Shown: positions 13,053 through 53,498 of the stretch, in pieces
Layout of the letters: every line of letters begins with the position of its first letter
Position numbering within the stretch: position 1 is the first letter of the stretch
Assembly: GCF_003258315.1 (NCBI RefSeq)
Contig: NZ_CP030032.1
Span: forward strand, 658,001 to 722,000
Length of the DNA stretch: 64,000 bases
Origin: Bradymonas sediminis
Lineage (GTDB): Bacteria > Myxococcota_A > Bradymonadia > Bradymonadales > Bradymonadaceae
Direction: 5' to 3'
Notes under the pieces: generated by a model
The model's input: the letters and a program-made list of their open reading frames with translations, nothing else
Told to the model about the DNA's origin: nothing
The model's database searches: none
Translations under genes and position numbers: made by a program

Positions 13053-14591
13053 ATGCCTGACTTGGAGTTTAAAGCAAAAAATCAGGGCCAGACGCCCCGG
13101 CTTGGCCGCGCGCTCGTCATTGGCGCGGTTATTTTGGCGAGCCTCGCGGGGGCGGGGCAGCGGGCCGAGGCGGCGCAATTTCGGGTGCAGTCGATCAGCA
13201 TCGGGCGCTCTGCCCAGTATTTTCGGGCCGACCGCAGCGTGTTTGCGCCGCGCGTCTTTACCCAGGGGATGAGCCTGTGGGGCTACGACTTGCTCGACGA
13301 CAAGACCGGCTCGCTCAACCTGCACGTGTCGATGCGCTATACCAACGACTTCTCGCTGGATTATGCCGAGCGCCATCACCCGTATTTCGACCGAAGTTGG
13401 AATGAGCTGACCCTCGACCTGGCGTATCTCGACTGGCGGCCTTACCGCGCGCTGCGCCTTCGGCTGGGGCGCCAGTGGAGCGGCGGGGCGCTGGGCACCC
13501 GCGACTTCGACGGCGTATTGTTGCGCTTTAGCCCGCGCATCGCACCGGCGACGCGCGCCGAATTCGAGGGCTACGCCGGGCGCGACATTCAGAGCGCCTA
13601 TAGTCAATGGTTTGACCCGGAGCATTTCGACGTGCAGGGGCTCCCGATTGACCCGCAATTGAGCCTCGTCGGCGACTCGGGGGCGCATCTGATCGCCGGG
13701 GCGAGCGCCGGGCTAAAGTGGGGGCGCGACGGGGCGGTGGCGCTGAGTTGGCGGCGGCGTTGGAGCGAGGGCGTCACCTCCGAGGCGCTGCAATCTGTGA
13801 GTGATTCGACCCGCGTCGTCGGCAGTGAGCGCGTCGGCGTGGCCGGGAGCGCGTCGGTGCATCCGCGCCTGGTGACCTCGGCCTGGGGCGTCTATAACGC
13901 GCCGATGCGTGACGTCGACCGCGCCGGCCTGCAGCTCGCCTGGCGCATCCCCGCGCTCGAGAGCAGCCTGAGCGCGGGCCTTGAGCACCAGCGGCCCTGG
14001 TTCGACAGCTCCAGCATCTTCAACCTCTTTGGCCCTCGCGCCCACCAGCAGGCTTTTGCGACCTACCAACATCGCGCGCCCGGGCTCGACACCGACTTCC
14101 AGGCGCGCGCCTGGGGGCGCTATTATCCCGGCTCAAACGGCCTCAATCGCGGGGGCGACCTTCGCTACGCCGTCGACGATATTCGCGAGCGCGCCGTGGG
14201 CGTCTCGTTGCGCCACCTCACGCGGCTGCGTGTGTGGGAGCGCAAGCTGACCTGGAGCACCATGACGAGCTGGCAGGCGAGCCTCGACCGCGGGAGTGAT
14301 CAGTGGATGGGGCAGGTTCAGCTGCGCATGCCGGTATGGGGCGACGACCTCTTTGTCTCGGCGCGCGGCCTGCTCCTGGCCGCGACGCAAGACGCCGATC
14401 GCGGCGCCGAGAGCGGCTTTATTCGCCTGCTGCCAGGGGCGATTGGTTTTGCGAGCACCGGCGTCATCGGCCTGGACCTGCCGGTCGGTAACCTCGGCAC
14501 GCTGAGCGCCTCGACGGTCACCAGCGGCGGCAATATTTATCCCATCGACACCAGCATATATGCGAGCTTTCGCGTGGAGCATTGGCCATGA
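13053..14591 (+). CDS. Outer-membrane beta-barrel protein (porin-like partner of the heme protein)
   Basis: A 512-residue exported protein with a basic N-terminus and hydrophobic core (ALVIGAVILASLAGAG) ending in a signal-peptidase-I-like QRAEAAQ. The rest is alternating polar/aromatic strands with short turns, typical of outer-membrane barrels (LNLHVSMRYTNDFSLDYAERHH, LRLRLGRQW, DTDFQARAWGRYY). It ends in a strand with a near-terminal Phe and Trp (YASFRVEHWP). The stop overlaps the start of the next gene (ATGA), so translation is coupled to the multiheme cytochrome. By analogy with porin-cytochrome conduits it may sheath the heme protein in the outer membrane; that role is inference. Confidence 0.7.
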   Translation: MPDLEFKAKNQGQTPRLGRALVIGAVILASLAGAGQRAEAAQFRVQSISIGRSAQYFRADRSVFAPRVFTQGMSLWGYDLLDDKTGSLNLHVSMRYTNDFSLDYAERHHPYFDRSWNELTLDLAYLDWRPYRALRLRLGRQWSGGALGTRDFDGVLLRFSPRIAPATRAEFEGYAGRDIQSAYSQWFDPEHFDVQGLPIDPQLSLVGDSGAHLIAGASAGLKWGRDGAVALSWRRRWSEGVTSEALQSVSDSTRVVGSERVGVAGSASVHPRLVTSAWGVYNAPMRDVDRAGLQLAWRIPALESSLSAGLEHQRPWFDSSSIFNLFGPRAHQQAFATYQHRAPGLDTDFQARAWGRYYPGSNGLNRGGDLRYAVDDIRERAVGVSLRHLTRLRVWERKLTWSTMTSWQASLDRGSDQWMGQVQLRMPVWGDDLFVSARGLLLAATQDADRGAESGFIRLLPGAIGFASTGVIGLDLPVGNLGTLSASTVTSGGNIYPIDTSIYASFRVEHWP

Positions 14592-15373
14592 GCTTTGAGA
14601 AGAAGACCCGCTCCCGACGATGCCACACGCGGCGCGCGCGCGCGGCCGACAAGCGAAAAAACTACCTGAAAGTTGGCCTCGCCCTGCTGCTCGCCTCGGC
14701 CTTTTCGAGCTATTGCATGGCGCCGGATTCGCAGGTCCCCGCGGCTCAATATAGCGGCACGAATCACGCCGGCGCCTACCACTCGTTGCGCGGCCCGGAC
14801 GCCCCGGCCAAGCGCGCGCAGGGGACCAAACGCCTGCGCCCGGCCAACCACGACGTCGCCTGGATGGAGCGCCACGCCGGGGTCGCGCGCGCTAACTCCA
14901 GCGACTGCGCGAGCTGCCATAAGGAGCAGGACTGCGTCGCCTGCCACACCGCCGACCTCGGCGAAGCCTTCCAGGTGCACCCGCCGAATTTCGCGATTGT
15001 GCACTCGATCGACGCCAAGATTAACGCCCAGGATTGCACAAGTTGCCACCAGCCGCAGAGCTTTTGCGCCGAATGTCATATGCGAAGCGGCGTCAGCGCT
15101 ATCGACGGGTTTCGCCCGCCGGTGCGCGCCGAATTCCACCCGCCCGGCTGGAGCGATCCGGCCCAGCCCAATAACCACGGCGTCATGGCCCGGCGCGATA
15201 TCAACGATTGCGCGAGCTGCCACCAGGAGCGCGATTGCGTGACCTGCCACGTCAATATCAACCCGCACCCGCCGGAGTTTCAGCTCAATTGTCGCGGGTG
15301 GATAAGCGCGGACCCGAGGTCGTGCGCGCAATGCCACGGGGACCTCGCGGCGCTTAAGCAATTGTGTCTTTGA
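14588..15373 (+). CDS. Multiheme c-type cytochrome with seven CxxCH motifs
   Basis: A 261-residue protein with a basic N-terminus and one hydrophobic export segment (about residues 26-43, YLKVGLALLLASAF). Seven heme-attachment motifs follow: CASCH, CVACH, CTSCH, CAECH, CASCH, CVTCH and CAQCH. They are arranged as three close pairs (residues ~107-120, 150-164, 208-221) plus one at ~246-250, with conserved extra His residues as likely distal ligands. It overlaps the barrel gene by the ATGA stop/start. I preferred the ATG at 14588 to a TTG at 14582. The last ~117 bp reappear at 19695-19811. Predicted periplasmic electron carrier. Confidence 0.9.
   Translation: MSFEKKTRSRRCHTRRARAADKRKNYLKVGLALLLASAFSSYCMAPDSQVPAAQYSGTNHAGAYHSLRGPDAPAKRAQGTKRLRPANHDVAWMERHAGVARANSSDCASCHKEQDCVACHTADLGEAFQVHPPNFAIVHSIDAKINAQDCTSCHQPQSFCAECHMRSGVSAIDGFRPPVRAEFHPPGWSDPAQPNNHGVMARRDINDCASCHQERDCVTCHVNINPHPPEFQLNCRGWISADPRSCAQCHGDLAALKQLCL
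15257..15373 (+). repeat. 117-bp repeat, copy A (3' end of the cytochrome gene)
   Basis: The terminal 117 bp of the cytochrome gene, including its stop codon. It is repeated in the same orientation at 19695-19811 with two mismatches (both T/C changes, near the stop). Similarity ends exactly at the stop codon on the right. Confidence 0.95.
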
Positions 15374-19656: not shown

Positions 19657-19977
19657 AAATAGGCCGCTTTACATACATGGTCGTCGGTCTGTAGATCAAC
19701 CCGCACCCGCCGGAGTTTCAGCTCAATTGTCGCGGGTGGATAAGCGCGGACCCGAGGTCGTGCGCGCAATGCCACGGGGACCTCGCGGCGCTCAAGCAAT
19801 TGTGTCTCTGATGCCGGTTCTATGAGTCGCCTAATGGCCAGCGTGGCCTGCAATATTTGCGCGGCTTGCCAACGAGCGCTATGATGAGCATCGCTTCTCC
19901 TGAGAGACGTCGATGGTGTTTTATATGCTATCCGGTCGCGAAATCCCTCAATCATATAAATAAAGCAGTGTGATGAT
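19657..19977. other. Intergenic region containing the repeat copy B
   Basis: This 321-bp stretch holds no complete gene. Bases 19695-19811 are the second copy of the cytochrome 3' end. The remaining 166 bp before the next gene resemble ordinary intergenic sequence and are probably the original downstream flank of the cytochrome gene. Confidence 0.7.
19695..19811 (+). repeat. 117-bp repeat, copy B (orphan cytochrome 3' end)
   Basis: 115 of 117 bases are identical to 15257-15373, in the same orientation, and the copy ends at the same stop codon. It encodes the CAQCH heme motif and C-terminus but has no start, so it is a gene fragment. Confidence 0.95.
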
Positions 19978-30001: not shown

Positions 30002-30241
30002 TGTGTGGGGGCGGGGCTTCGGGCGGCGTTCTCGTCTGAATCGAAGCCTGGATACCGACGGCTTAATTCACCTGACGACGACTCACCTGCTATTTTGAAC
30101 CGCTCGTCGGAATATTGTAGAACGTGGCGCCTTCGATGCTCTATAGGATATCCTGCGCTCTTATCGCCGCCGCGCATATGGTGTCGCGAAATGGAATAGA
30201 GCAGTCCAAGCTGACCTTTTATTTTGCCTGGGATATCTAGC

Positions 30242-31681
30242 ATGTTGCAGTCGATCGCGCTTAAAGACAAAACGCACGTTGATTCTGACCTTGATTTCGA
30301 CGCCGAAGTCGAAGTACCTGAGCCTATTGAGACGGCTTCACAGGATATAAGAGTGCAAGAACAAGTTGTAGAAAAAGTACAGGCGACCGAGGCCGCGCGG
30401 CCGTCGAGTCGTATCTCTGGGTTCTATAAAATGTCGTTGGGCGCGCGGCTGGAGTGTCTGGTCGAGCGCGGGATCATCGACGCCGAGGGCGCCGAGCTTC
30501 TGCGCGACCGGGACCAGGGGCTGGCGGCTGAGACCGCGAACGATATGGTCGAGAATTGCATCGGTCTTTTGGAGCTTCCGCTCGGGCTGGGGCTCAACTT
30601 CAAGATCAACGGGCGCGATTATATCGTGCCGATGGCGGTGGAAGAGCCGAGCGTCATCGCGGCGGTCAGCCACTGCGCGCGCCTGGTGCGAACGAGCGGC
30701 GGCTTTGAGTCGCGCTGCGACTCCAACGTGATGATCGGGCAGGTCCAGGTCGTCGGGTGTGAGGATTTTGAGACCGCGCGCCTGGCCATCCTCGACGCCC
30801 GCGCCGAGCTCCTGGACCTGGCGAATTCCTTTGAGCCGAATATGGTCGCCCGCGGCGGCGGCGCCAAAGAGCTCGAGGTGCGCCTGCTCGACCAGGGCAA
30901 TTACCGCAAGATGCTGGTCGTCCATCTTCATATCGACGCGGTCGACGCCATGGGCGCCAACCTGGTGAACACGATGGCCGAGGGCATCGCCCCGCGCATC
31001 GAAGAGCTCACCGGCGGCACCGTCTTTTTGCGCATCCTCTCCAACCTCGCCGACCGCCGCCTGGTGCGCACCACCTGCCGGATCCCGTTCGCGGATCTGG
31101 CGTGGCGCGGCTTCACCGGCCGCGAGGTCGCCGAAGGCATCGAGCACGCCAGCCAATTCGCCGAGCGCGACCCCTACCGCGCGACCACCCACAATAAGGG
31201 CGTGATGAACGGCATCAGCTCGGTGTGCATCGCCACCGGCAACGATTGGCGCGCGGTCGAAGCCGGCGCCCACGCCTATTGCGCCCGCGACGGCCAATAC
31301 CGCCCGATGGCCATCTGGTATGTCGACGGCGAGCACCTTGTTGGGGAGCTGGAAGTCCCGATGCAGGTCGGCACCGTCGGCGGCCCGATCAAGCTGCACC
31401 CCACCGTCCAACTCGCCCACAAAATCCTGCGCATCAACGGCGCCCGTGAACTCGCCGAAGTCATCGGCGCGGTCGGCCTGGCCCAGAACCTCGGCGCGCT
31501 CAAGGCGCTGTCGACCGAGGGCATCCAGCGCGGCCATATGTCGCTGCACGCGCGCAGCGTCGCCGCCACCGCAGGCGCCACGGCCGATGAGATGCAGTTA
31601 GTCATCGACGCGATTATTGCCTGCGGTGAGGTGAAAGTCAGCAAGGCGGTCGAGGTTCTGGCGGAGCTTAGGGCGGTGTAA
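30242..31681 (+). CDS. mvaA: Hydroxymethylglutaryl-CoA reductase, class II
   Basis: A 479-residue protein. Class II HMG-CoA reductases interconvert HMG-CoA and mevalonate, either as the committed step to isoprenoids or, in some bacteria, for mevalonate breakdown. Catalytic residues are all present: Glu in AVEEPSVIAA, Lys in THNKGVMNGI, Asp in GNDWRAVEAG and His in GHMSLHARS. A ~65-residue acidic N-terminal extension precedes the conserved start (RISGFYKMSLGARLE). I chose ATG 30242; an in-frame TTG at 30224 is also possible. Its last ~908 bp are repeated at 35230-36137. Confidence 0.93.
   Translation: MLQSIALKDKTHVDSDLDFDAEVEVPEPIETASQDIRVQEQVVEKVQATEAARPSSRISGFYKMSLGARLECLVERGIIDAEGAELLRDRDQGLAAETANDMVENCIGLLELPLGLGLNFKINGRDYIVPMAVEEPSVIAAVSHCARLVRTSGGFESRCDSNVMIGQVQVVGCEDFETARLAILDARAELLDLANSFEPNMVARGGGAKELEVRLLDQGNYRKMLVVHLHIDAVDAMGANLVNTMAEGIAPRIEELTGGTVFLRILSNLADRRLVRTTCRIPFADLAWRGFTGREVAEGIEHASQFAERDPYRATTHNKGVMNGISSVCIATGNDWRAVEAGAHAYCARDGQYRPMAIWYVDGEHLVGELEVPMQVGTVGGPIKLHPTVQLAHKILRINGARELAEVIGAVGLAQNLGALKALSTEGIQRGHMSLHARSVAATAGATADEMQLVIDAIIACGEVKVSKAVEVLAELRAV
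30774..31681 (+). repeat. mvaA 3' duplication, copy A
   Basis: The part of intact mvaA that is repeated, in the same orientation, 4456 bp further on. By eye I count about 33 differences in 908 bp (about 96% identity). They are concentrated at the 3' end, and a ~250-bp central stretch (about 31091-31340) is identical. Confidence 0.9.
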
Positions 31682-31713
31682 ATTGGAGCCCGACCCTCTG
31701 GGTCTGTCAGATA

Positions 31714-31751
31714 AAAGGCCATCCTCGGAATTCGGAGGATGGCCTTTTTTT
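31714..31751 (+). terminator. Intrinsic terminator after mvaA
   Basis: Stem aaaggccatcctc / gaggatggccttt followed by a T-run. Its ccatcctc/gaggatgg core recurs in the hairpins at 35048 and 36184. Confidence 0.9.
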
Positions 31752-31957
31752 ATAAAACCTTAATATGACAAAAACGATGCGTTTGGACTACGCTCAAGGT
31801 TATCAGCATCCCATTGCAGCTTCAGTCGCTGCCATACTCAAATCAACAAACCTGAGCGATGTCGTGCCGACTGCCTGGATCTGTTGAATTCGTGTTTCAA
31901 TAATAAATTAAATCCTTTAAAGCCTTCGCTAATAGTGGTTATGTCAGCGGCCGATTG

Positions 31958-33142
31958 ATGTTCTATAATGCTCAAGGCAACTATTGTCCGAACAGCCGCG
32001 ACTGTATAGGAGCGAAATATGTTCAAGCGGATTTTAACAAATATTTACCGGTGTCCGACGCGAGAGTATATATATATGAATCCGCAATGAATACTCTAAT
32101 TGGTCAAGGGATCACTGATTCTGGTGGTCACTTCACGATCCGATGGGATACATTTTTTTATAATATACCTATGTATATTCGCTGGAGGCCGATCCAAAAG
32201 GATGGGCGTTTTGCAATCCGTACACCATCGGGTGGGCAATGGAATTTTAATACAGGTCTTATACAGCCGGATACGAACACCACTCTCTCATCACCTCAAA
32301 TATTGGGGGCATTTTATTGGGGGTCATCTTCATCACCGGAACCAGTGTCGAATCTATATAACGGCGCCTGGCGGATGTGGTATTACGCCCTGAATTCATC
32401 TTCAAGAATGAGGGCATATTTCAACGATGTTGAGATTCGAGCCGATAGTGATAAGGGAGGAAAATGCCCCACGAGTTGTGCCAATGGTGGCCAGAACCGA
32501 ATTGATATTGACTCGGTTAATTCCATGTACGCGCCGCAGGCTCGGATCCTTCACGAGATGGGGCATATCGCGTCATATCGCGCCAGCTATCACCAGAATT
32601 ATAAATATGGTGGTGATTATGAGTGGCCAAACACTGGCAAAAACGGAAGTTGGTCTTTAACAAGCTCCGAATGGGGGGCCGCTCAATTCGAGGAGGGATT
32701 GGCCACGTTTTACGGTGACCGGGCGATTTATTGGCAAGCCGCCACCGAACCACACACATGCTATGCTTCTAAACTTCCTTGCTCAAATGGTTCATATAAT
32801 ACTGAGAGCAGCAGCGGCGCTGGCAGTGGTTGCGCCTTCAATGAGGATAGATTTCCCATTAGCGTTGTTCGTTATCTGCGTGATTTATACGACAGTAACG
32901 GAGACACGGGGATCTCCGCATCCTATTCTGAATTTTTTGAGACAATTGAGGATTTCCCTGGGGGAATCAGCAACGGCGACAAAGATGAGCCATTTTGCGA
33001 CTCAGCCATTCCGTTTATGCCCGATTATCTCTGTGATCGTCATGGTCGTTCGGCACGCGACTTTCGCCGTCACTTTGAGGCCCGAACCGGGGAAAATACC
33101 CTTTCTGAGTGGGCATGGAATTGTGTACCAGTCGGCGACTAA
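31958..33142 (+). CDS. HExxH metallopeptidase-like protein, probably 5'-truncated
   Basis: A 394-residue reading frame from the first ATG. The N-terminal ~70 residues resemble a transthyretin/carboxypeptidase-regulatory domain (DARVYIYESA...GITDSGGHFTIRW). The zinc motif LHEMGHIASY lies at ~residue 196, with a downstream QFEEGLATFYGD that could supply the third ligand, as in gluzincins. There is no signal peptide, though eight Cys residues and the neighbours imply export. The open frame continues upstream to 31907 with domain-like residues (SGYVSGRLMFYN), then hits a stop. The true 5' end was therefore probably lost at the island edge. Confidence 0.6.
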   Translation: MFYNAQGNYCPNSRDCIGAKYVQADFNKYLPVSDARVYIYESAMNTLIGQGITDSGGHFTIRWDTFFYNIPMYIRWRPIQKDGRFAIRTPSGGQWNFNTGLIQPDTNTTLSSPQILGAFYWGSSSSPEPVSNLYNGAWRMWYYALNSSSRMRAYFNDVEIRADSDKGGKCPTSCANGGQNRIDIDSVNSMYAPQARILHEMGHIASYRASYHQNYKYGGDYEWPNTGKNGSWSLTSSEWGAAQFEEGLATFYGDRAIYWQAATEPHTCYASKLPCSNGSYNTESSSGAGSGCAFNEDRFPISVVRYLRDLYDSNGDTGISASYSEFFETIEDFPGGISNGDKDEPFCDSAIPFMPDYLCDRHGRSARDFRRHFEARTGENTLSEWAWNCVPVGD

Positions 33143-33228
33143 GTTGATGTCGCATCCCTGCCGGCATAAAAAAGTGGGTAGGGATGAGGTTTATAGCCAT
33201 TATTTGTCGTTCTTAATTAGAGGCTTGA

Positions 33229-34134
33229 ATGAAATCTCGACGCCATCAAAGAATTGTCTATATATCGATAAAATTAACGTTTTTGGCTTCACTCGTTGCG
33301 GTTCTCCTATTTAACTACGGGTGCGAACCCGATTACGAGGACATTATATTATGTGATGGCAGCGACGACGTCCGCCTAGCCTATCGCATGCAAAGCTCAG
33401 TGGGTCGTATTCCACCCGGAGAACAAGTTATGGTCGAGAATGGATATTCATTTTTGTACCTCGACGGCCAGTGCCGCTACTGGGCTTTTCCGCGAGAATA
33501 TGACGGAAGTTCTGATAGCATTTGGAGTGACGTCGTGACGGGCAAACTTACCCCGGGCCAGGAAGCAAAACTCAAGGACGATTTGTCGGTGATACAATGG
33601 CAGGCTTGGGACCAAAAACACTTTCATGAGCCCGGTCTCTTCGACGCAGGTACGGCCACATTTTGGACTCCAATGGCGATGTTTCAGTGCTCGGGAGACT
33701 GTGGGAGCAATTTAAGAGAAGAAATCTACACAAATACTCGCACGTGGATTCGGACACTCGCTGAACAAGGTGATCCTGTCGAGGGCGCGGTGCGTGTGGC
33801 CGCGATAATAATGCCCGATGAAGCCCTTCCAAATCCTCTTCAACCCGTACCGGAGGATATTGATCTTCGAGAGCACGCTGTGTCCTTTGGTGATGCCTAT
33901 AACATCTGTTTTGGCGACGGAATCCTAGTGACTGGTGACGTCGCCGATACGTTGCGGCGTTATCGCCGTGAATATTACGGTGGAAAATACGGAAATTTTG
34001 ACTATCGATACTTACCCCTCGAGGCCGCAGACGGACAGAAATATATGGTCTATGTCCGCGACACCACGCCACCCGAAGGTGACAACGGACTCGTTCAACT
34101 CGAAGGTATTTCCACCTCAATATGCCCCGACTGA
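33229..34134 (+). CDS. Lipoprotein of unknown function (paralogue of 36291-37190)
   Basis: A 301-residue lipoprotein with leader LTFLASLVAVLLFNYGC and a lipobox Cys. A ribosome site (agagg) precedes the ATG. It is clearly homologous along its length to the product at 36291: ILCDGSDDVRLAYR, FLYLDGQCRYWAFPRE, TLRRYRREY, YMVYVRDTTP. Identity by eye is about half. Conserved Cys residues include CSGDCG. It has no known family. The copy lies in the AT-rich island; the other has host-like composition. Confidence 0.78.
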   Translation: MKSRRHQRIVYISIKLTFLASLVAVLLFNYGCEPDYEDIILCDGSDDVRLAYRMQSSVGRIPPGEQVMVENGYSFLYLDGQCRYWAFPREYDGSSDSIWSDVVTGKLTPGQEAKLKDDLSVIQWQAWDQKHFHEPGLFDAGTATFWTPMAMFQCSGDCGSNLREEIYTNTRTWIRTLAEQGDPVEGAVRVAAIIMPDEALPNPLQPVPEDIDLREHAVSFGDAYNICFGDGILVTGDVADTLRRYRREYYGGKYGNFDYRYLPLEAADGQKYMVYVRDTTPPEGDNGLVQLEGISTSICPD

Positions 34135-34215
34135 GAATGACGGTTTTGGAGAGATGATGAAATCTCAATAAACATTCATTTAAGGCTATTGGGCTGTTTT
34201 TATAAGGACATATTC

Positions 34216-34965
34216 ATGGATAATCGACGCATCCGACCTGTATTTATCCTCTTAATGGTGTTGGTATGTGTGCTCGCCGGGGTGCTAATTCGCTGGACTT
34301 GGGACGCCTTCAAACCCGCTCCAGCCAAACAATTTACTCAGACCATCTCTACCGATAAACTTCAACAAAATCGTTTACCAAAAAACAACACATCCAAACC
34401 TACAAAAAGATTTTCAAATTCCCAAATGCAAATCGCCGGCACAATGGATTCGGATTCGCGTCCACCAGGTATCGACCCACCTCCTGAGTACTTTCCGCGC
34501 GACTCTAAGGAATGGCAGGGCATGCGGATCGATATAAATCTCCAGCCTCCATGCTCCGAATCAGCAAATTGTGGCCTGGCGCGTGCATGTAACGACGGTA
34601 AATGCGGTCCTTGTATGACCGACCGCGATTGCGACGGCTCCGAGATATGCGCTCTCGAGCATTGCGTGAAGGCTGAAGACACCGAATGCCAGAGCAAGAA
34701 TGATTGCGCGCAAGACGAACTCTGCATTCTTAGCGGATATTCGACGGGTGTTCGGGGCAACGAGGAGATGACGGCAAAATGTATAGAACCTGGCGCAGAA
34801 CCTGTACTCAGCGAAGAAGAAGAACAAGCCATCATGGACGCAAATCCTATCGAGCGCATCGAGGCTCCAACTCCCACGGTCGCTATGGGCGATTTAATGG
34901 ACACACTGCGTAACAACGCTGATGATTCCTCGGAAGACTTCGAAACCGGTATAAATTCTCCGTAA
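34216..34965 (+). CDS. Membrane-anchored Cys-rich protein
   Basis: A 249-residue protein with one N-terminal membrane segment (FILLMVLVCVLAGVLIRW) and a polar linker. Residues ~115-190 form a Cys-rich region with about twelve Cys in CxxxxxC/CGPC-type spacing (CNDGKCGPC, DRDCDGSEIC, CQSKNDCAQDELC), as in Dickkopf/EB-type modules of myxobacterial surface proteins. The acidic C-terminus lacks Cys. ATG 34216 has aagga upstream; TTG at 34189 was rejected as the start. Island cargo. Confidence 0.7.
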   Translation: MDNRRIRPVFILLMVLVCVLAGVLIRWTWDAFKPAPAKQFTQTISTDKLQQNRLPKNNTSKPTKRFSNSQMQIAGTMDSDSRPPGIDPPPEYFPRDSKEWQGMRIDINLQPPCSESANCGLARACNDGKCGPCMTDRDCDGSEICALEHCVKAEDTECQSKNDCAQDELCILSGYSTGVRGNEEMTAKCIEPGAEPVLSEEEEQAIMDANPIERIEAPTPTVAMGDLMDTLRNNADDSSEDFETGINSP

Positions 34966-35047
34966 CGGACTCGATTTCGCCACTTTGCGTTGAATCAGGG
35001 CAGGGATGCCCTGACTCGTATTTTGGACGGGACTTCGTCTTTGTAAA

Positions 35048-35087
35048 AGAGCCGCCACCCTCATTGCGAGGATGGCGGCTTTATTTC
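35048..35087. terminator. Hairpin terminator within island 2
   Basis: Stem gccgccaccctc / gaggatggcggc with one mismatch, then tttattt. It lies after the Cys-rich gene and next to the 3' end of a minus-strand gene remnant, so it may have served both directions. Confidence 0.75.
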
Positions 35088-35107
35088 TCAACTCATCGCC
35101 CTACCCA

Positions 35108-35215
35108 TCAGCGCACAAAGACCACGCCAAACGCACGCAGGTCGACGTTGCCGTTATCGAAGCGCACATTGCAGCCGGCCGAATGTCCGATGTGGCCGCA
35201 GTGGGGTGGGGCCGC
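35108..35215 (-). pseudogene. C-terminal remnant of an unknown minus-strand gene
   Basis: On the minus strand the frame GCNVRFDNGNVDLRAFGVVF then VR and stop (stop at 35108-35110) looks like the C-terminal strand of a secreted protein. Its upstream sequence is replaced by the truncated mvaA copy. Only about 30 codons remain, so this is suggestive rather than certain. Confidence 0.3.
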
Positions 35216-35229
35216 CCGCGCCACCGATG

Positions 35230-36137
35230 CCGCGCGCCTCGCCATCCTCGACGCCCGCGCCGAGCTCCTGGGCCTGGCGAATTCCTTCGAGCCGAATATG
35301 GTCGCCCGCGTCGGCGGCGCCAAAGAGCTTGAGGTGCGCCTGCTCGACCAGGGCAATTATCGCAAGATGCTGGTCGTCCATCTTCATATCGACGCGGTCG
35401 ACGCCATGGGCGCAAACCTGGTGAACACGATGGCCGAGGGCATCGCCCCGCGCATCGAAGAGCTCACCGGCGGCACCGTCTTTTTGCGCATCCTCTCCAA
35501 CCTCGCCGACCGCCGCCTGGTGCGCACCACCTGCCGCATCCCGTTCGCGGATCTGGCGTGGCGCGGCTTCACCGGCCGCGAGGTCGCCGAAGGCATCGAG
35601 CACGCCAGCCAATTCGCCGAGCGCGACCCCTACCGCGCGACCACCCACAATAAGGGCGTGATGAACGGCATCAGCTCGGTGTGCATCGCCACCGGCAACG
35701 ATTGGCGCGCGGTCGAAGCCGGCGCCCACGCCTATTGCGCCCGCGACGGCCAATACCGCCCGATGGCCATCTGGTATGTCGACGGCGAGCACCTGGTCGG
35801 CGAGTTGGAAGTCCCGATGCAGGTCGGCACCGTCGGCGGCCCGATCAAGCTGCACCCCACCGTCCAACTCGCCCACAAAATCCTGCGCATCAACGGCGCC
35901 CGTGAACTCGCCGAAGTCATCGACGCGGTCGGCCTGGCCCAGAACCTCGGCGCGCTCAAGGCGCTGTCGACCGAGGGCATCCAGCGCGGCCATATGTCGC
36001 TGCATGCGCGCAGTGTCGCGGCGACCGCCGGCGCGACGGCCGATGAGATGCAGCTCGTTATCGACGCGATCATCGCCAGTGGTGAGGTGAAGGTCAGCAA
36101 GGCGGTCGAGGTTCTGGCGGAGCTACGGGCTTCCTGA
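35230..36137 (+). pseudogene. 5'-truncated duplicate of mvaA
   Basis: This fragment corresponds to codons ~179 to the end of mvaA and keeps THNKGVMNGI, GNDWRAVEAG and GHMSLHARS. It lacks the N-terminal ~178 residues, including the catalytic Glu (EEPS) and the dimer/substrate region, and has no proper start; the frame opens only through a non-homologous leader from 35064. Nearly all differences from the intact copy are synonymous, so it is either young or homogenised. It should not make an active reductase. Confidence 0.9.
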
Positions 36138-36183
36138 TGGGGAGCCCGACCTTCAAGGTCTGGCAGGGAGATCAGCTATAAGA

Positions 36184-36217
36184 ACGCCATCCTCATTGCG
36201 AGGGTGGCGTTTTTTGT
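36184..36217 (+). terminator. Intrinsic terminator after truncated mvaA copy
   Basis: Stem acgccatcctc / gagggtggcgt with loop attgc, then tttttt. It is related in sequence to the terminators at 31714 and 35048. Confidence 0.88.
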
Positions 36218-36290
36218 TGAAGTCCTCATAGCGAGCTGACATGCTGCCCCGCATATCGAACTAAATTACCACCATTTGGGGGCCCGAAGC

Positions 36291-37190
36291 ATGAAATCAT
36301 TGAATAGTCGCAACGCCATCGCCATCACCCGACGCCTCGGCGGCGCGGCCCTGCTTTTGGGGCTTCTAAGCGCGAGCTACGGCTGCCTGGACGACGTCAC
36401 CCTATGTGACGGCAGCGAAGATATCCGCCTGGCTTATCGCACCGGGGGAGGTGGCATGATTTCGCCCGGCCACAAGCTTATGTCCGAGAATGGGTCTTCC
36501 TTCTTATATGTCGACGGGCAGTGCCGCTATTGGGCGTTTCCGCGGGAGGACGACGGCGTCTCGGATAATACGTGGAGCGAGGTGGCGACCGGCGAGCTCA
36601 GCGCGGAGCAGGAAGCAGAGCTCAAAGATGAGTTGTCGGTGGTGGAGTGGCAGCGCTGGGATCAGGAAGGCTTTCAAGAAAACCCTGCGAATGATGGAGG
36701 TGCGGCCACCTTTTGGATGCCCAATACCACATTCTCATGTTCGGGCGGCTGTGGGAGCGGTGAGCGAAATGAGATTCACCAAAATGTGCGCAGTTGGATG
36801 GGGAAGCTGGCAAAGCGGGGGGAGCCGGTCCGGAGTGATGTGCGGATATTGGCTGAGGTGGTGCCTGAGAGCGTGCTCAGGCAGAACCGTGAGCATCCTG
36901 TGCAACCCGCGCCGGCCGGGCTCGATCTTGGGGCGCACGCCTTTGAAGCGGGCGACCATTATTGCGCGGGTAACGGGGTATTGGTGAGCGGTGAGGCGGC
37001 GAATACACTGCGTCGGTATCGCCGTGAGTATGCGCATGGGGAGCACGGCGCTTTTTGGTATAGTTATCTGCCGATCGAGGCCGTCGATGGCCAGCAATAT
37101 ATGGTCTATATGCGCGACACGACGCCGCTCGAAGCCGCCAATGGCCTGGTCAAACTCGACGGGATTCGAGCCGAGTTCTGCGCTCAATAA
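36291..37190 (+). CDS. Lipoprotein of unknown function (paralogue of 33229-34134)
   Basis: A 299-residue lipoprotein (GGAALLLGLLSASYGC, lipobox Cys at ~28) with GC-rich, host-like codon use. It shares with the island copy the blocks TLCDGSEDIRLAYR, FLYVDGQCRYWAFPRE, ELKDELSVVEWQ.WDQ, TLRRYRREY and YMVYMRDTTP. The start at 36291 gives a normal signal peptide; an upstream TTG at 36276 is not needed. Each paralogue lies downstream of an mvaA 3' end, so the gene order mvaA-lipoprotein occurs twice. Confidence 0.8.
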   Translation: MKSLNSRNAIAITRRLGGAALLLGLLSASYGCLDDVTLCDGSEDIRLAYRTGGGGMISPGHKLMSENGSSFLYVDGQCRYWAFPREDDGVSDNTWSEVATGELSAEQEAELKDELSVVEWQRWDQEGFQENPANDGGAATFWMPNTTFSCSGGCGSGERNEIHQNVRSWMGKLAKRGEPVRSDVRILAEVVPESVLRQNREHPVQPAPAGLDLGAHAFEAGDHYCAGNGVLVSGEAANTLRRYRREYAHGEHGAFWYSYLPIEAVDGQQYMVYMRDTTPLEAANGLVKLDGIRAEFCAQ

Positions 37191-43866: not shown

Positions 43867-44418
43867 TCAGTTCGCGAAATTCTGCACCCAGATCGGCTGC
43901 CCATTGCACGGCGCGTAGCCGACGCCCAGGCGCGAGAACACCGGGCGAATGATATTTTTGCGGTGCTCGGGGCTGTCCATCCAGCCGGCGTGAACCTCGG
44001 CCGGGGTGGGGTGTCCCATGGCGATATTTTCGCCGATGGCCCGAAACTCAAAACCCGCCTCGTTGACCCGATCCTCCATGGTGCGACCGTCTTTGGAGGT
44101 GTGGGAAAAATAGCCCTTTTTGCACATATCATTGGCGTGCTTCAGGGCGATCTTGTCGAGCTCGGGGGAGCAATAAACTGGGGGCTGACCGGCGTCTTTT
44201 CGCGCCTGATTGGTCCATTTAACCACGTCGCGGTTGCGCGTGGAGGTGCAGGCGGCCAGCGGGTCACCGCTGGTGTGGGTGCGCGGAATCGCTTGCTCCT
44301 CGTTTGATACCGCGCCCATCGGGGCGCAGGCAAATTGCGGGGCCGCCGCGCTCAGCATCGTGAGGATGATAAGCGCGGCAGGAGCGGCGCGGCGCCGGCT
44401 TGTGGAGGTGTTCTTCAT
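43867..44418 (-). CDS. CAP (SCP/PR1) domain lipoprotein, copy 1
   Basis: 183 residues: lipoprotein leader (ALIILTMLSAAAPQFAC) and one CAP domain with the signatures HANDMCKKGYFSHTSKDGRT, ENIAMG, GWMDSPEHRKNII and LGVGYAP. CAP proteins are extracellular; the conserved His and Glu residues form the cavity. Start taken at 44418 (MKNTSTSRR); the frame's upstream extension is antisense-like filler. It lies 13 bp after CAP copy 2. Confidence 0.9.
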   Translation of the reverse strand: MKNTSTSRRRAAPAALIILTMLSAAAPQFACAPMGAVSNEEQAIPRTHTSGDPLAACTSTRNRDVVKWTNQARKDAGQPPVYCSPELDKIALKHANDMCKKGYFSHTSKDGRTMEDRVNEAGFEFRAIGENIAMGHPTPAEVHAGWMDSPEHRKNIIRPVFSRLGVGYAPCNGQPIWVQNFAN

Positions 44419-44431
44419 GGGGATAGCCGAA

Positions 44432-45001
44432 TCAGTCCGCGAAGTTTTGCACCCAATAGGGGTAGCCGTCGCATAAATAATAGCCCACGCCCAGGCGGCC
44501 AAAGCCCTCGGTTAAGATATTCTCGCGATGTCCGGGGCTGTCCATCCAGGCCTGGTGGACCTCGGCGGCGTTGGACTGGCCGTAGGCGATATTCTCGCCG
44601 ATCATCCGCCACTGCACATTGGCCGCGTTGACGCGCTCTTTGAGGGTTCGTCCGTCGGCCGAGGTGTGGGAGAAATAGTCCAGGTCGCACATATCTTTGG
44701 CGTGCAATTGGGCCGACTCGGTCAGCCCCGGGTCGCACTCCAGCGCGCCGAGTCCTTCGGCGGCGCGGGCTTCGTTGGTCAACTCCAGCACGCGCGCGGC
44801 ACGTTTGGTCAGGCAGGTGTCTTCCTCGGCGTCGGCGACGTCCTGGTCCCCGGCGTCGCCGCCCGCGTCGTGGCCGGCGTCGGCTTCAGTGATATTGTCG
44901 CCTGTGGTGTCGGTGTCGTCGTCGCCGCAGGCGGTCGCGCCGAGGCTAAAGACCAGCGCGCAGAGCAGGATTTGCAGGTGGGTTTTTTGCAGGTCGAGCA
45001 T
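44432..45001 (-). CDS. CAP (SCP/PR1) domain lipoprotein, copy 2
   Basis: 189 residues: leader LCALVFSLGATAC with a lipobox Cys, then an Asp/Ala-rich linker (~40 residues). The CAP domain carries HAKDMCDLDYFSHTSADGRT, ENIAYG, AWMDSPGHRENILT and LGVGYYLC. ATG 45001 was chosen over the frame start at 45085. Paralogous to the copies on both sides. Confidence 0.9.
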   Translation of the reverse strand: MLDLQKTHLQILLCALVFSLGATACGDDDTDTTGDNITEADAGHDAGGDAGDQDVADAEEDTCLTKRAARVLELTNEARAAEGLGALECDPGLTESAQLHAKDMCDLDYFSHTSADGRTLKERVNAANVQWRMIGENIAYGQSNAAEVHQAWMDSPGHRENILTEGFGRLGVGYYLCDGYPYWVQNFAD

Positions 45002-45139
45002 GGGACAATCTCTTTGATATGATGAGGGTAAATCGAGGAGGTGTGTTTCTGGCAAATGCGCGGGGAGGTGAGCCACGCGCCACAACCTTATAGCAGGTTA
45101 TAGCGCGTTTGTGTTTTCAAATCCTTCTTTGGGGCGAAA

Positions 45140-45979
45140 TTAATCGGCGAAGGTCTCGACCCAATAATGGGAGTATTGCGCGCTGCTGCAGGGCTTAAAG
45201 CCAACGCCCATGCGCTGGTATTGGCCGTTCATAATATTGGCGCGGTGCCCGGGGCTGTTCATCCAGCGTTGGTGGACCTGTGCGGCGGTGGAGCTGCCGG
45301 CGGCGATATTCTCGGCCATCGCCCCGGCGCTGACGCCCTGGGCGCGGATGCGCTGGTCGAAGGTGCGACCGTCGTCCGAGGTGTGTGAGAAATAGTTCAG
45401 GGCGCACATATCCTCGGCGTGGAGCTGGGCGGCGCGGCCCAGGCCCTCGTCGCAGCTCAACGGGCCGCGCCCCTCGGCCGCGCGCGACGCGTTCACCAGG
45501 GCAAAGAGGTCCTGGACGATGCCGGTGGCGCAGTTAGAGCTGGGTTCGCCGGAGGTGTCGGGTTCACTGGAAGAATCGGGTTCGCTCGAAGCATCCGGCT
45601 CACTGCCCGTATCGGGCTCGCCGGAAGAATCGGGTTCGCTGGAAGTATCGGGCTCGCCGGAGGTATCGGGTTGCGGTTGCTCGGTGGCGTCCGGTTCTTC
45701 TTGCGTGGTGTCGGGGATGTCGCCGCCGCTATCGCCGGTGTGCGTGTCGGGGGGCGCGCCGGCGTCGGCGGCGGGAGTCGTGGTTGAGTCCGGGGTGTCA
45801 TCGCCAGTCTGCGCGTCGCCCGGTGAGTGACCCGCGTCGGTCGTGGTCGCGTCGTCTTCTTGGGAGGTGGCTGTTTTGTCTTCCAGGGGCGCGTCGTCGC
45901 TGCAACCAACCTGGAAGCCGGCGAGTAAAAGGGCGGTGAGGAGGGCGAGCATGGGGCGGGTCATCGTGCTTGGTTTCAT
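45140..45979 (-). CDS. CAP (SCP/PR1) domain lipoprotein, copy 3, with long acidic repeat linker
   Basis: 279 residues: leader LALLTALLLAGFQVGC (lipobox), then ~115 residues of Asp/Ser/Pro/Thr-rich linker containing tandem GEPDTSSEPDSS-type units. The C-terminal CAP domain has HAEDMCALNYFSHTSDDGRT, ENIAAG, RWMNSPGHRANIM and MGVGFKPC. The start at 45979 overlaps the recG stop by ATGA and has ggag upstream. The linker probably lifts the domain away from the membrane. Confidence 0.9.
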   Translation of the reverse strand: MKPSTMTRPMLALLTALLLAGFQVGCSDDAPLEDKTATSQEDDATTTDAGHSPGDAQTGDDTPDSTTTPAADAGAPPDTHTGDSGGDIPDTTQEEPDATEQPQPDTSGEPDTSSEPDSSGEPDTGSEPDASSEPDSSSEPDTSGEPSSNCATGIVQDLFALVNASRAAEGRGPLSCDEGLGRAAQLHAEDMCALNYFSHTSDDGRTFDQRIRAQGVSAGAMAENIAAGSSTAAQVHQRWMNSPGHRANIMNGQYQRMGVGFKPCSSAQYSHYWVETFAD

Positions 45980-48126
45980 CCGGCGTCTCCAAGGAGTTCT
46001 CTTCGCGCGTCGCTGCGCGCCCATTCGATGAGTTTGATATCACGGAGTATATCGGCAAAACGAAATTCTGGCATCCCTGCCTGGCGGACGCCCAAAAATT
46101 GGCCGGGGCCGCGAATTTCGAGGTCAACTTCGGCCAGCGCGAAGCCGTCTTCGGTGCTGGCGAAGGAGTCGAGGCGCTGCTGGGCGTCGTCGGTGAGGGC
46201 GAATCCCGCGAGCAAAATGCACATCGAGTCGGCGCTGCCGCGCCCGACGCGCCCGCGCAACTGGTGGAGCTGGCTTAAGCCGAAGACCTCCGGGCTCTCG
46301 ATGACCATTATCGTCGCGTTGGACACGTCCATGCCCACCTCGACCACCGTGGTCGCGCACAATACCTGGATCTCGCCGGCGCCAAATTTCTGCATGGTGC
46401 GGTCTTTGGCCGCGGCGTCCATGCGCCCGTGCAACACGCCCACGCGCAGGTCTTTAAACGGTCCATTGGCCAGCGCCGCGGCCGAGTCGGTCACGTTCTC
46501 GCGCCCCGCCACGGCCTCGCTCGCCTCGACCATGGGGTACACAAAATACGCCTGCTCGCCGGTCTCAACGATGCGATCGCGCACATATTGATAGACCTTT
46601 GGGGCGGCGGCGCGGTCGCGCAAAAAGGTGCGAATGGGCTTTCGCCCCGGGGGTTTTTCGGCGATCACGCTTAAGTCCAGGTCCCCGAAAACCGCGTGGG
46701 CCAGCGAGCGCGGGATGGGCGTGGCGGTCATGGCCAAGAGGTGCGGGTCCTGGCCCTTTTGGAGCAAGTCGCGGCGCTGCTCGACGCCGAATTTGTGCTG
46801 CTCGTCGATGATCACCAGGCCCAGGGAGTCGAACGCGACGTCGGCCTGGAAGAGAGCGTGGGTGCCGATAATCAGGTCGATGCGCCGGGCCGCCCCGGCC
46901 GCGGCGGCCGGGGCAAACAGGTCCTGCTCGCCGATCTGGGGGCCGCGGCTGTCGGTGGTTTTCTCGGCCTTCAGGCGCTCGAGCACCGCCTTTCGCTCGC
47001 TGGCCGGCTGCGAGCCGGTGAGCACGCCGATCTCGATCGGCAGACCCTCGAAGACCTCAAGGGCGCGGCGGAAATGCTGTTTGGCCAGGATATCGGTGGG
47101 GGCCATCATGGCGACCTGGTGGCCGCTGCCGATGGCGATGGCCGCCGACATAAAGGCCACCACGGTCTTTCCGCTGCCGACGTCGCCCTGGAGCATGCGG
47201 CGCATCGGCGCGCGCCGGCCCAGGTCCTCGGCGATGGTCGCGATGGCGGCGCGCTGGTCGCCGGTAAGCGTGTAGGGCAGGGCGCGCACGAATTCGCGGC
47301 CCAGGTCGCGCTCGGTGCAGCGCGGCGCGCGCGCGGCGCGTCGCTCGGTGACATAGTCCTGGGCTAATTTGCGCTGAAGGGTATAAAACTCCTCATAAAC
47401 CAGGCGGTTACGCGCGCGCGTGAGCTCCTCGCGGAACGCCTCGACCCCCTGGTCTTCGCCGCGCCCGTTGAGCATATGGATGGTCTCAAACGCGTCCTTG
47501 ATGCTCGGCAGATCGTATTGCTTCAGGATTCGCTCGGGGATGATATCGACGGCCAGCGGCAATAATTTGGCCGCGGCGTCCTTCAGGGCGCCGCGCATCG
47601 CGGCGTCGCGGATACCCTCCATCGAGGTATAAACCGGCTCCAGGCGAATCTGCGGGGCGGGGTGCTCGGGTTCGTTTCGCCCGATGACGTCGAAATTCGG
47701 GTGCGCCAGCGACGCCCCGCCGCGCTCCCAGTCGACCTTGCCCTCGACCTGCAGCCACAGGCCGATGTCGAAGAGGTTGGTGAAATGGCGTCGGTTCATA
47801 TTGAACCAGATGAGCTTAAACGCCTGGCCGTCGACCTCGACGGTGACCTCGACCGGCGCGCGGCTGTGCGGCGGGGGGATATTGACGCGCACGACCTGGC
47901 CAAAGAACTCCACATGGGTCGCGTTCAGCCGCAGCATCTCGGCCCCCGACACGTGGCGATATAGCGGGCGATATTTGCGCGGGATAAATAGGAGGACATC
48001 GCTCGGCGAGGTGATCCCGCGCTCGACGAGGCGCTCGGCCGTCTTTTTTCCGATGCCGCTCAGCGCGGTGAGCTTGAGCGTCGGCGGCGTCTCGAAGGTC
48101 AGGTTGAAGCGACCGGGTATCGTCAT
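45976..48126 (-). CDS. recG: ATP-dependent DNA helicase RecG
   Basis: 716 residues. An N-terminal helix-hairpin-type segment and OB/wedge domain (residues ~20-190) precede the SF2 helicase core. Walker A is GDVGSGKTVV, Walker B is IIDEQHKFG, motif III TATPIPRSLA, and motif VI QLRGRVGRG, with the RecG TRG-like tail (DILRDIKLIEWAR). RecG remodels stalled replication forks and Holliday junctions. It is the promoter-proximal gene of the minus-strand run, with CAP copy 3 coupled to its stop. Confidence 0.97.
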   Translation of the reverse strand: MTIPGRFNLTFETPPTLKLTALSGIGKKTAERLVERGITSPSDVLLFIPRKYRPLYRHVSGAEMLRLNATHVEFFGQVVRVNIPPPHSRAPVEVTVEVDGQAFKLIWFNMNRRHFTNLFDIGLWLQVEGKVDWERGGASLAHPNFDVIGRNEPEHPAPQIRLEPVYTSMEGIRDAAMRGALKDAAAKLLPLAVDIIPERILKQYDLPSIKDAFETIHMLNGRGEDQGVEAFREELTRARNRLVYEEFYTLQRKLAQDYVTERRAARAPRCTERDLGREFVRALPYTLTGDQRAAIATIAEDLGRRAPMRRMLQGDVGSGKTVVAFMSAAIAIGSGHQVAMMAPTDILAKQHFRRALEVFEGLPIEIGVLTGSQPASERKAVLERLKAEKTTDSRGPQIGEQDLFAPAAAAGAARRIDLIIGTHALFQADVAFDSLGLVIIDEQHKFGVEQRRDLLQKGQDPHLLAMTATPIPRSLAHAVFGDLDLSVIAEKPPGRKPIRTFLRDRAAAPKVYQYVRDRIVETGEQAYFVYPMVEASEAVAGRENVTDSAAALANGPFKDLRVGVLHGRMDAAAKDRTMQKFGAGEIQVLCATTVVEVGMDVSNATIMVIESPEVFGLSQLHQLRGRVGRGSADSMCILLAGFALTDDAQQRLDSFASTEDGFALAEVDLEIRGPGQFLGVRQAGMPEFRFADILRDIKLIEWARSDARRELLGDAG

Positions 48127-51592: not shown

Positions 51593-52445
51593 AAGCTCTC
51601 CGTAGGATAATAAGCCTGGCCAAGTCCTCAACGCTGACGTTGAACGGCCAAAGCATTTTGAATGAGCGGCTTGCCTAGCACGAATCAGAGATGCGGTTCA
51701 ACTTTTCGCCCGGCTGGCATGGAGTCTGTCGCACCGGCGGGGCAAGCCCGCCGGGGGCGGTTGCACGCTCGCAGGCCTCGCTGGCCCGCAGTCCTTTGCG
51801 CCGGCGGGGCAAGCCCGCCGGGGGCGGTTGCGCGGTCGTAGGCGTAGCTGGCATGGAGTCTGTCGCACCGGCGGGGCAAGCCCGCCGGGGGCGGTTGCAC
51901 GCTCGCAGGCCTCGCTGGCCCGAAGTCCTTTGCTCCGGCGGGGCAAGCCCGCCGGGGGCGGTTGCGCGGTTGTAGGCCTCGCTGGCATGGAGTCTGTCGC
52001 GCCGGCGGGGCAAGCCCGCCGGGGGCGGTTGCACGCTCGCAGGCCTCGCTGGCCCGAAGTCCTTTGCTCCGGCGGGGCAAGCCCGCCGGGGGCGGTTGCC
52101 GCTACGGGATTCTGCACCGAGACCGGCCGTCAGCAAAGACCCCCGCCGGCTTGCCCGGCGGGTGAAGCGGACTGAGAGCCAGCGAACGTCACGGTGCAGC
52201 AGACCCCCGCCGGCTCGCCCGGCGGGAGCGTCACCAGCGTCACGGAGCAGCAGCAGATGGCAGCCAACCAGCGTCACGGAGCAGCAGACCCCCGCCGGCT
52301 CGCCCGGCGGGAACGTCACTGGCCGCCCAACGTCTTTTCTCGTAAAGTTTTGCTCTATCGAAGTTTCTCCCAGCACCCCACCGCTCGACGAAGCCTGAAG
52401 AAGGCTTCGCTGTGTCGTCGGCAATCCAAACTGGAGCGCCACGCC
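51593..52445. other. REP-rich intergenic region left of the RAYT-like gene
   Basis: 853 bp with no supported gene; frames that appear open here only reflect the GC-rich repeats. It contains the 67-bp-period array and several inverted single REPs. Confidence 0.8.
51715..52330. repeat. REP/BIME-like palindrome array, left side
   Basis: Six palindromes (core ccggcggggcaagcccgccg) start at 51734, 51801, 51868, 51935, 52002 and 52069, exactly 67 bp apart. Two different spacers alternate: one with gctggcccg.agtcc, the other with gctggcatggagtctg. This makes a 134-bp higher-order unit, as in BIMEs. Three more palindromes in the other arrangement (acccccgccggct.gcccgg) follow at about 52139, 52204 and 52288. 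Confidence 0.93.
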
Positions 52446-53249
52446 ATGTCTATCGAACCGTATTACACCCCTGAACGTACCAAATGTGCTTATCGATTAT
52501 ATTATAGTTGGCTCGGCTGGCCTTCTATGAACACCGCATTGCCTGAACTCGAAGGGCCGGCGATCGCGGATCTTCGTGATGCGTGGGAAGTTGACGGGAT
52601 TCGCCTGCTGGAGCGGGCGTATTCGCCGCGAGAGGTAAGGATGCTGAGCAGCGTCAAACCGAGTGTCTCGCCGGTATTATTCACCGCCCGAATGAAGGGG
52701 CGCCTGGACCACGCAATGCGACAGCGGCAGGCGTGCGTGAAGTTTAGCCGCAAGGTCGCCATGGTTAGCGTCGGCAATAATATCCAGGCCGTTGTTGAGC
52801 GATATGTGGCGAATCAGGCCCGCAAGGAGCCCCTCGCCGACCCACGTAGCAACGTGTTTTTGCAACAATTTACAGTGGTTGATTCGACGGTTGATCTCGC
52901 GATGCCGACCTGCAGCAACGCGGGGCGCTATTGGTATAACCTCCACCTTGTACTGGTAACGCGCAATCGAATTCGGATCCTCGACGCGCGTCGTTTAGGT
53001 ATGCTTCGGGATGGATGTCTTCGGGTTGCTGCCACCCGCGGGCATCAGATCTCCCGGCTCGCGGTGGTTTTCGACCACCTGCACATCGCGCTTCGCGGGG
53101 CGATTGACCAATCCCCCGCGGAGATCGCCCTGTGTTATATGAATAACCTCGCCTATTTTCTGCGCCAGGACGCGCTATGGCAGCCGTCGTATTATGTCGG
53201 GACTTTCGGGCAATATAATTTGGGGGCGATTCGGTTAAATTGTCGATAG
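52446..53249 (+). CDS. REP-associated tyrosine transposase-like protein (Y1/HUH)
   Basis: A 267-residue protein. Its C-terminal half resembles IS200/REP-associated transposases (RAYT): RYWYNLHLVLVTRNRIRILD, the HUH pair in VVFDHLHIAL, and a downstream Tyr in SYYVGTFGQYNLGAIR that could be catalytic. The N-terminal ~130 residues (YYSWLGWPSMNTALPELEGP, LLSSVKPSVSP-type) form an additional domain seen in extended members; role unknown. Start ATG 52446 with ctggag upstream. REP palindromes lie on both sides, the diagnostic setting for a domesticated RAYT. Confidence 0.8.
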   Translation: MSIEPYYTPERTKCAYRLYYSWLGWPSMNTALPELEGPAIADLRDAWEVDGIRLLERAYSPREVRMLSSVKPSVSPVLFTARMKGRLDHAMRQRQACVKFSRKVAMVSVGNNIQAVVERYVANQARKEPLADPRSNVFLQQFTVVDSTVDLAMPTCSNAGRYWYNLHLVLVTRNRIRILDARRLGMLRDGCLRVAATRGHQISRLAVVFDHLHIALRGAIDQSPAEIALCYMNNLAYFLRQDALWQPSYYVGTFGQYNLGAIRLNCR

Positions 53250-53498
53250 GCTGGCCCGCAGTCCTTTGCGCCGGCGGGGCAAGCCCGCCGGGGGCGGTTG
53301 CACGCTCGCAGGCCTCGCCACGAACCTGCAGAAGACCCCCGCCGGCTCGCCCGGCGGGGCAAGCCCGCCGGGGGCGGTTGCCGCTACGGGATTCTGCACC
53401 GAGACCGGCCGTCAGCAAAGACCCCCGCCGGCTCGCCCGGCGGGTGAATCAGACTCATAGCCAGCAAACGCCGCGAACCAGCAAAAGACCCCCAACCA
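53250..53498. repeat. REP array, right side of the RAYT-like gene
   Basis: It holds one direct palindrome at about 53271, a head-to-head pair at 53337-53373 and one at about 53420-53444. The segment around 53371-53445 nearly duplicates 52091-52162 on the left, and 53250-53317 matches array units on the left. The RAYT gene is therefore bracketed by direct repeats. Confidence 0.9.

Follow-up and report, generated by a model that had tools for sequence, protein, structure and literature searches.

Why is mvaA, the sole intact 3-hydroxy-3-methylglutaryl-coenzyme A (HMG-CoA) reductase gene in the whole genome of Bradymonas sediminis, followed a few kb downstream by a second copy of its own 3' end? 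The locus resides in a window of 64,000 nucleotides, positions 658001-722000 of the complete, single-contig genome (5,045,683 bp, GC content 0.61); coordinates at mvaA are those of the window, coordinates of loci elsewhere those of the genome, unless otherwise stated. The full copy of the gene (F), the cargo which follows it and the 5'-truncated copy (T) form an island, the second in the window, which is probably a scar left by DNA of a relative that was inserted one-sidedly, with homology as the anchor. The recurrence of this scar at several genes suggests that genes are picked up by one-sided recombination with the DNA of relatives.

F (30224-31681, plus strand; the true start is maybe at 30251 or later) matches the Pfam family HMG-CoA_red (8e-108). 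T (35217-36137, plus strand) is made up, according to the repeat alignment, by the last ~303 mvaA codons, stop codon included. Self-BLAST pairs 30774-31765 with 35230-36230; the homology sets in a few bases earlier, at ~30757/35217. The coding parts of the repeat (30774-31681 and 35230-36137, both on the plus strand) differ at 34 positions over 908 bp, with no gaps (96.3% identity). An earlier sequence-only reading of the window had put the identity at about 96% and held nearly all changes to be silent, and the count agrees: 24 of the 34 differences fall at codon position 3, and by codon 28 are silent and 5 change the amino acid. Four of the five replacements hit residues also variable among relatives, the fifth being located at the C-terminus, unaligned in relatives. 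The same reading had described a central stretch of ~250 bp as identical and the 3' end as more diverged. The longest identical tract spans 257 bp (31082-31338), and the last 133 bp of the repeat hold 21 of the 34 differences. A run of this length has P = 0.0002 for 34 uniformly placed differences, but P = 0.07 within the first 775 bp alone; the real anomaly is therefore the diverged mvaA 3' end. ENCIG, the catalytic Glu motif, is found in F only, DAMG and GTVGG in both copies; T, as already surmised, should by itself be no working enzyme. At the left edge of T, homology breaks off abruptly inside the gene. No residual mvaA 5' homology was detectable upstream of T, the score falling within those of shuffled sequences.

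Both copies are followed by hairpin terminators on the plus strand, located at 31709-31751 for F (GGCCATCCTC...GAGGATGGCC and a T run; RNA fold -25.8 kcal/mol, z -5.9) and at 36180-36214 for T (-23.6 kcal/mol, z -6.2). The cargo (31690-35210, ~3.5 kb) is AT-rich, as had been noticed, with a GC content of 0.49 vs. 0.68 in the mvaA copies. It includes a lipoprotein gene (lip1; 33229-34134, plus strand) 54% identical to the lipoprotein gene directly following T (lip2; 36291-37190, plus strand). The order in which lip2 follows the truncated copy had been read correctly; the paralogy of lip1 and lip2, the occurrence of the pattern genome-wide and the existence of relatives of the cargo set in another genus come in addition.

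Islands were monitored in 2.06 Mb of the genome (41%), read in stretches, to which all locus counts refer, as unique direct repeats spaced by 0.3-25 kb, along with a search for repeated gene ends. Seven loci consist of a full gene, cargo and a 3' fragment of the same gene. Besides mvaA (908 bp repeat, 30774/35230), these are nfu (448826/453837, 310 bp), a multihaem cytochrome gene, or island 1 (673257/677695, 117 bp, plus strand), genes encoding a dynamin-like GTPase (1092674/1089346, 170 bp) and YjbQ/UPF0047 (2083556/2082334, 249 bp), a lipoprotein gene (3779167/3778129, 277 bp), and a histidine-kinase-like gene along with the 3' end of its convergent neighbour (HK-X; 999022/1003094, 1598 bp). 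The host genes at the mvaA, nfu, yjbQ and GTPase loci were named via Pfam, the histidine-kinase-like gene by eye from the sequence. Island 1 had been credited with the same architecture as the mvaA island, and this holds true: the intact multihaem-cytochrome-like gene (window 14582-15373) shares its last 117 bp (15257-15373, ending on the stop codon) with a displaced fragment (19695-19811, 98.3% identity) which follows an IS66 transposase gene and an RCC1-like lipoprotein gene. At 7/7 loci it is the full gene which comes first, with the fragment downstream. No 5'-fragment islands were seen in the scan for repeated gene ends, and no inverted repeats passed the filters in 2.06 Mb. Selection may be behind the lack of 5' fragments: a fragment of this type would be expressed, and would cut the gene off from its promoter. 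Cargo GC content is 0.49-0.54 at five of the seven loci, between repeats of 0.57-0.71; it is 0.63 at the GTPase and 0.58 at the kinase locus. On the right-hand side homology reaches the stop codon or slightly beyond the terminator and no further; a gene common to donor and recipient, but followed by different sequence in each, would give this pattern. A region resembling a type I restriction-modification system (1032155-1040647) lies between 236-bp direct repeats 89% identical; these repeats (1032155/1040412) and several short ones are unclassified, and were left out of the count.

Relatives were monitored over 0.76 Mb from two genomes, along with two contigs of a third (G001). One locus of the same form was detected in 360 kb of another genus of the family (G005), at a zinc alcohol dehydrogenase gene, methyltransferase and acyltransferase genes being followed by the gene fragment, and the latter by sugar-nucleotide biosynthesis genes. 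No such locus was found in 400 kb of the other genome (G010), a sample too small for a significant difference. At the other seven loci the cargo and the genes following the fragment share no homology; old and new paralogues are found at mvaA only.

The nature of the differences between repeats tells alleles from decaying copies. In six loci pooled, 69 of 96 coding differences fall at codon position 3 (P = 1e-14), and 69 are silent vs. 21 replacements (P = 2e-10 against a neutral-copy model). The model is a rough one: the fragment is neutral, the full gene constrained, 28% of random changes are silent, and ~56% replacements are expected, 23% being observed. A neutral second copy is rejected at mvaA alone (P = 1e-6). 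The silent excess implies that most differences arose under constraint on both sequences, as alleles in two lineages, and not by decay. At nfu both terminators retain the hairpin through a two-sided change, from U-A to C-G. Silent bias and intact hairpins of both copies support two separately evolved functional alleles, one from the donor and one from the recipient. Identity is patchy at mvaA and at HK-X, where a cluster of 12 differences lies between long identical tracts, and this fits either mosaic recombination, or gene conversion, later or concurrent. The sequence-only reading had offered a close-relative donor or ongoing conversion as alternatives; the first is supported insofar as the differences look allelic, the second fits in the form of later or concurrent conversion. 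The idea that divergence generally follows a U-shaped profile was discarded: such a profile is only loosely seen, the strong signal at mvaA being the diverged last 133 bp.

In the one-sided insertion that we favour, the incoming DNA would have carried an mvaA allele and the donor's own downstream genes. The donor allele would have paired and recombined with the resident mvaA, serving as the anchor, so that F would combine a resident 5' part with the 3' end and terminator of the donor. At its opposite end the donor DNA, having no homology, would have been joined illegitimately inside the resident mvaA. What remained of the resident gene (its 3' end, now T) would thereby have been displaced downstream as a tail, together with the resident terminator and the old neighbour lip2. 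Patchy conversion, either later or concurrent, would account for the identical middle of F and T. Inferred parts of this scheme are the donor, the uptake route and an illegitimate joining at the left edge of T. The scheme would account for the data in the fewest steps, with no duplication in the recipient, one working anchor gene and a promoterless 3' fragment. Uptake by natural transformation is plausible, given the comEC and dprA homologues of the genome and the type IV pili of the family (PMC7460792).

Several observations weigh against this insertion. Homologues of comEC and dprA are found also in many control genomes of bacteria not known as competent. An empty-site relative, in which mvaA would be directly followed by the lip2 homologue, had been proposed as a check; empty-site relative, strain-level relative and donor genome were searched for, and none was found. 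The mvaA neighbourhood is not common to the nearest relative, as no window neighbour of mvaA has a homologue beside the mvaA gene of that genome. Differences on the left side of the mvaA repeat are few (3 replacements among 13), and the first 770 bp could therefore partly represent ordinary divergence of a duplicated copy. The nfu fragment keeps a decayed, more 5' piece of the gene; here at least, later deletion has shifted the edge away from the original junction. Lastly, the metallopeptidase gene of the mvaA cargo is truncated and the left edge of the cargo looks rearranged, pointing to more than one event.

The main rival, which we regard as rather improbable, is a Campbell-type crossover. 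A circle carrying an mvaA 3' segment and the cargo would undergo a single crossover with the resident mvaA, yielding F, cargo and T in this order; the left part of T and the right part of F would come from the donor, the left part of F and the right part of T from the resident, and the circle, able to excise and move, would be an integrase-free mobile element. The exact topology is obtained without an illegitimate step in the recipient. Silent differences flanking an identical crossover tract are predicted, and are seen in mvaA, yjbQ and nfu, and the HK-X repeat is explained as a contiguous host segment of 1.6 kb spanning two convergent genes. Yet a circle made up by a random gene fragment and cargo is required, and the cargo proteins tested have no relatives in plasmids (DNA and protein), phages or viral contigs. 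No replication or mobility gene was found among the mvaA cargo proteins, and a search for lip2 in genome contigs, looking for a donor or vector, gave no match.

More doubtful is a tandem duplication of mvaA and the lipoprotein gene, followed by 5' decay of the second mvaA, with conversion keeping the rest similar. Both copies do precede homologous lipoprotein genes and similar terminators, 5' decay by deletion is seen in the nfu copy, to which a tandem duplication may have contributed, and duplications of this type exist in the genome: at 2000106-2009009 an RCC1-like lipoprotein gene and its neighbour occur twice in tandem (94% and 82% identity), and this ordinary duplication is unlike the islands. 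The lipoproteins, however, have diverged much further than the mvaA copies have, and apart from terminator and lip genes the downstream sequences are unmatched. The lack of homology between cargo and post-fragment genes elsewhere, the rejection of a neutral second copy by the silent bias, and the failure to detect a mvaA 5' residue upstream of T all argue against a duplication. The same is true of the survey of relatives: 52/58 match mvaA, none with a second mvaA that scores comparably, so that the relative with two full-length genes, which the sequence-only reading had named as decisive for simple duplication, was not found.

A slim chance is left to integrase-free mobile units, in which circles formed by gene-end repeat and cargo would use RecA recombination both to excise and to insert anew, behind whichever anchor gene they carry the 3' end of. 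If this were true, Bradymonadales would dispose of a general, integron-like means to stack accessory genes behind housekeeping genes.

Islands borne by an integrase may target gene 3' ends, as the prophage e14 does at icd, restoring the full gene and leaving the displaced 3' fragment at the far end. A remnant of such an island would show the same topology, with a displaced fragment and with silent changes separating the old from the new end. This origin is nonetheless very improbable, as no integrase, recombinase or phage domain was found in the three mvaA cargo proteins or in the cargo proteins scanned from other islands, to which all domain statements refer; the repeats, 117 to 1598 bp long, have no fixed core and no set starting point within the gene, and the target genes are unrelated. 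A composite transposon, or a unit borne by insertion sequences (IS), was considered and rejected: IS66 and a DDE transposase sit inside two other islands, not at both ends, and the mvaA cargo has no transposase match. Partial repeats can be misassembled, but an assembly artefact is scarcely credible in a complete single contig, given 34 differences with coding structure and a pattern that recurs independently, at several loci here and once more in a second genome.

Among known processes, homology-facilitated illegitimate recombination (HFIR) has been described in transformable Acinetobacter, Pseudomonas stutzeri and Streptococcus pneumoniae, and also in E. coli conjugation (PMC3240628). As in HFIR, one end is anchored by homology and foreign genes are added beside a conserved gene, while the other end would lack homology; a junction in extended homology is found at mvaA, where F and T share the 908 bp with differences silent as those of alleles. 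The illegitimate junction is here presumed. HFIR is known mainly from laboratory selections, and is rare, whereas 41% of a single genome holds seven of the scars described here. Merodiploids arising by transformation in S. pneumoniae carry duplicated segments bordered by repeats (PMC3784515). These are duplications of 100-900 kb between pre-existing repeats; the islands feature instead a gene end of 0.1-1.6 kb around a few kb of cargo which is not duplicated.

In Vibrio cholerae, effector-immunity modules of the type VI secretion system (T6SS) undergo sequential displacement, the new module entering and the old immunity gene being kept; an event of the type favoured here has been proposed for this displacement (PMC5361080). 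In these arrays, as in orphan Rhs 3' ends, a conserved upstream anchor is the entry point of the new module, and the old 3' end and its partner are pushed downstream. The mvaA locus fits in outline, because lip2, the displaced gene, is a paralogue of the incoming lip1, and an HExxH protein is present as a candidate partner. Unlike in Vibrio arrays, anchors in B. sediminis include housekeeping genes (mvaA, nfu, yjbQ, cytochrome and GTPase genes), not secretion or toxin genes. By analogy, one might guess that the lip products are immunity-type proteins. No match to a toxin or immunity family was found, and there were no sequence relatives in the PDB. The lipoprotein structure model is moderate (predicted local distance difference test, pLDDT, 68; predicted template modelling score, pTM, 0.69), with unconvincing best fold matches (E 0.02, template modelling score 0.2-0.3); the metallopeptidase model, built from two sequences, is of no use (pLDDT 33).

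If the insertion reading is true, 3' fragments are scars, readable from the sequence, of genes acquired with no mobile element involved. At their density, about one per 295 kb in this genome, the comparison genomes scanned being relatives of the family only, one-sided recombination would be a main way for a predatory lineage to gain genes. A predator lysing its neighbours would find donor DNA at hand. A scan for unique direct repeats ending at a stop codon, and flanking AT-rich DNA, is applicable to any complete genome as a gauge of this route.

The mvaA cargo carries two genes in addition to lip1, both on the plus strand. The first (31913-33142) encodes a metallopeptidase-like protein with an HExxH motif (HEMGH), 38% identical in alignment to a homologue in G001, which belongs to a second genus. 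This homologue begins with a signal peptide, and in B. sediminis an in-frame stop is found just upstream of the gene; the protein apparently lacks the signal peptide, and may be inactive. The other (34189-34965) encodes a Cys-rich protein with an N-terminal membrane segment (Pfam DUF7107, 1.6e-06), homologues of which adjoin lip homologues in G001. In this relative, which has a GC content of 46%, homologues of all three cargo genes are clustered in a different order (contig C668), and the trio is thus a recurring gene set, not random DNA. A partial set of metallopeptidase, Cys-rich and lipoprotein genes resides on a second contig (C834), so that G001 carries at least one partial copy in addition to the complete one on C668. 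These copies suggest that the set may be a mobile or recurrently duplicated module. Between the Cys-rich protein gene and T lie a third terminator hairpin (35048-35082, plus strand), whose loop CCTCATTGCGAGG is shared only with the terminator after T in the 2.06 Mb scanned, and a possible 3' end of an unrelated gene (35108-35213, minus strand), single-copy in the genome, which abuts T.

Repeats of other types were also observed. At 3688033-3694019 of the genome, another RCC1-like lipoprotein gene and its flanks form a very recent tandem duplication (99.7% identity). In the window, three adjacent, related genes encoding secreted CAP-like proteins (43867-46024, minus strand; 66-70% nucleotide identity) represent an older local family. 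A 67-bp tandem array with a palindromic core, CCGGCGGGGCAAGCCCGCCGG, is found at 51641-53483, with a detached copy 1.2 kb away, and eight tandem repeats of 108 bp, an in-frame length, reside in a large open reading frame at 9650-10705.

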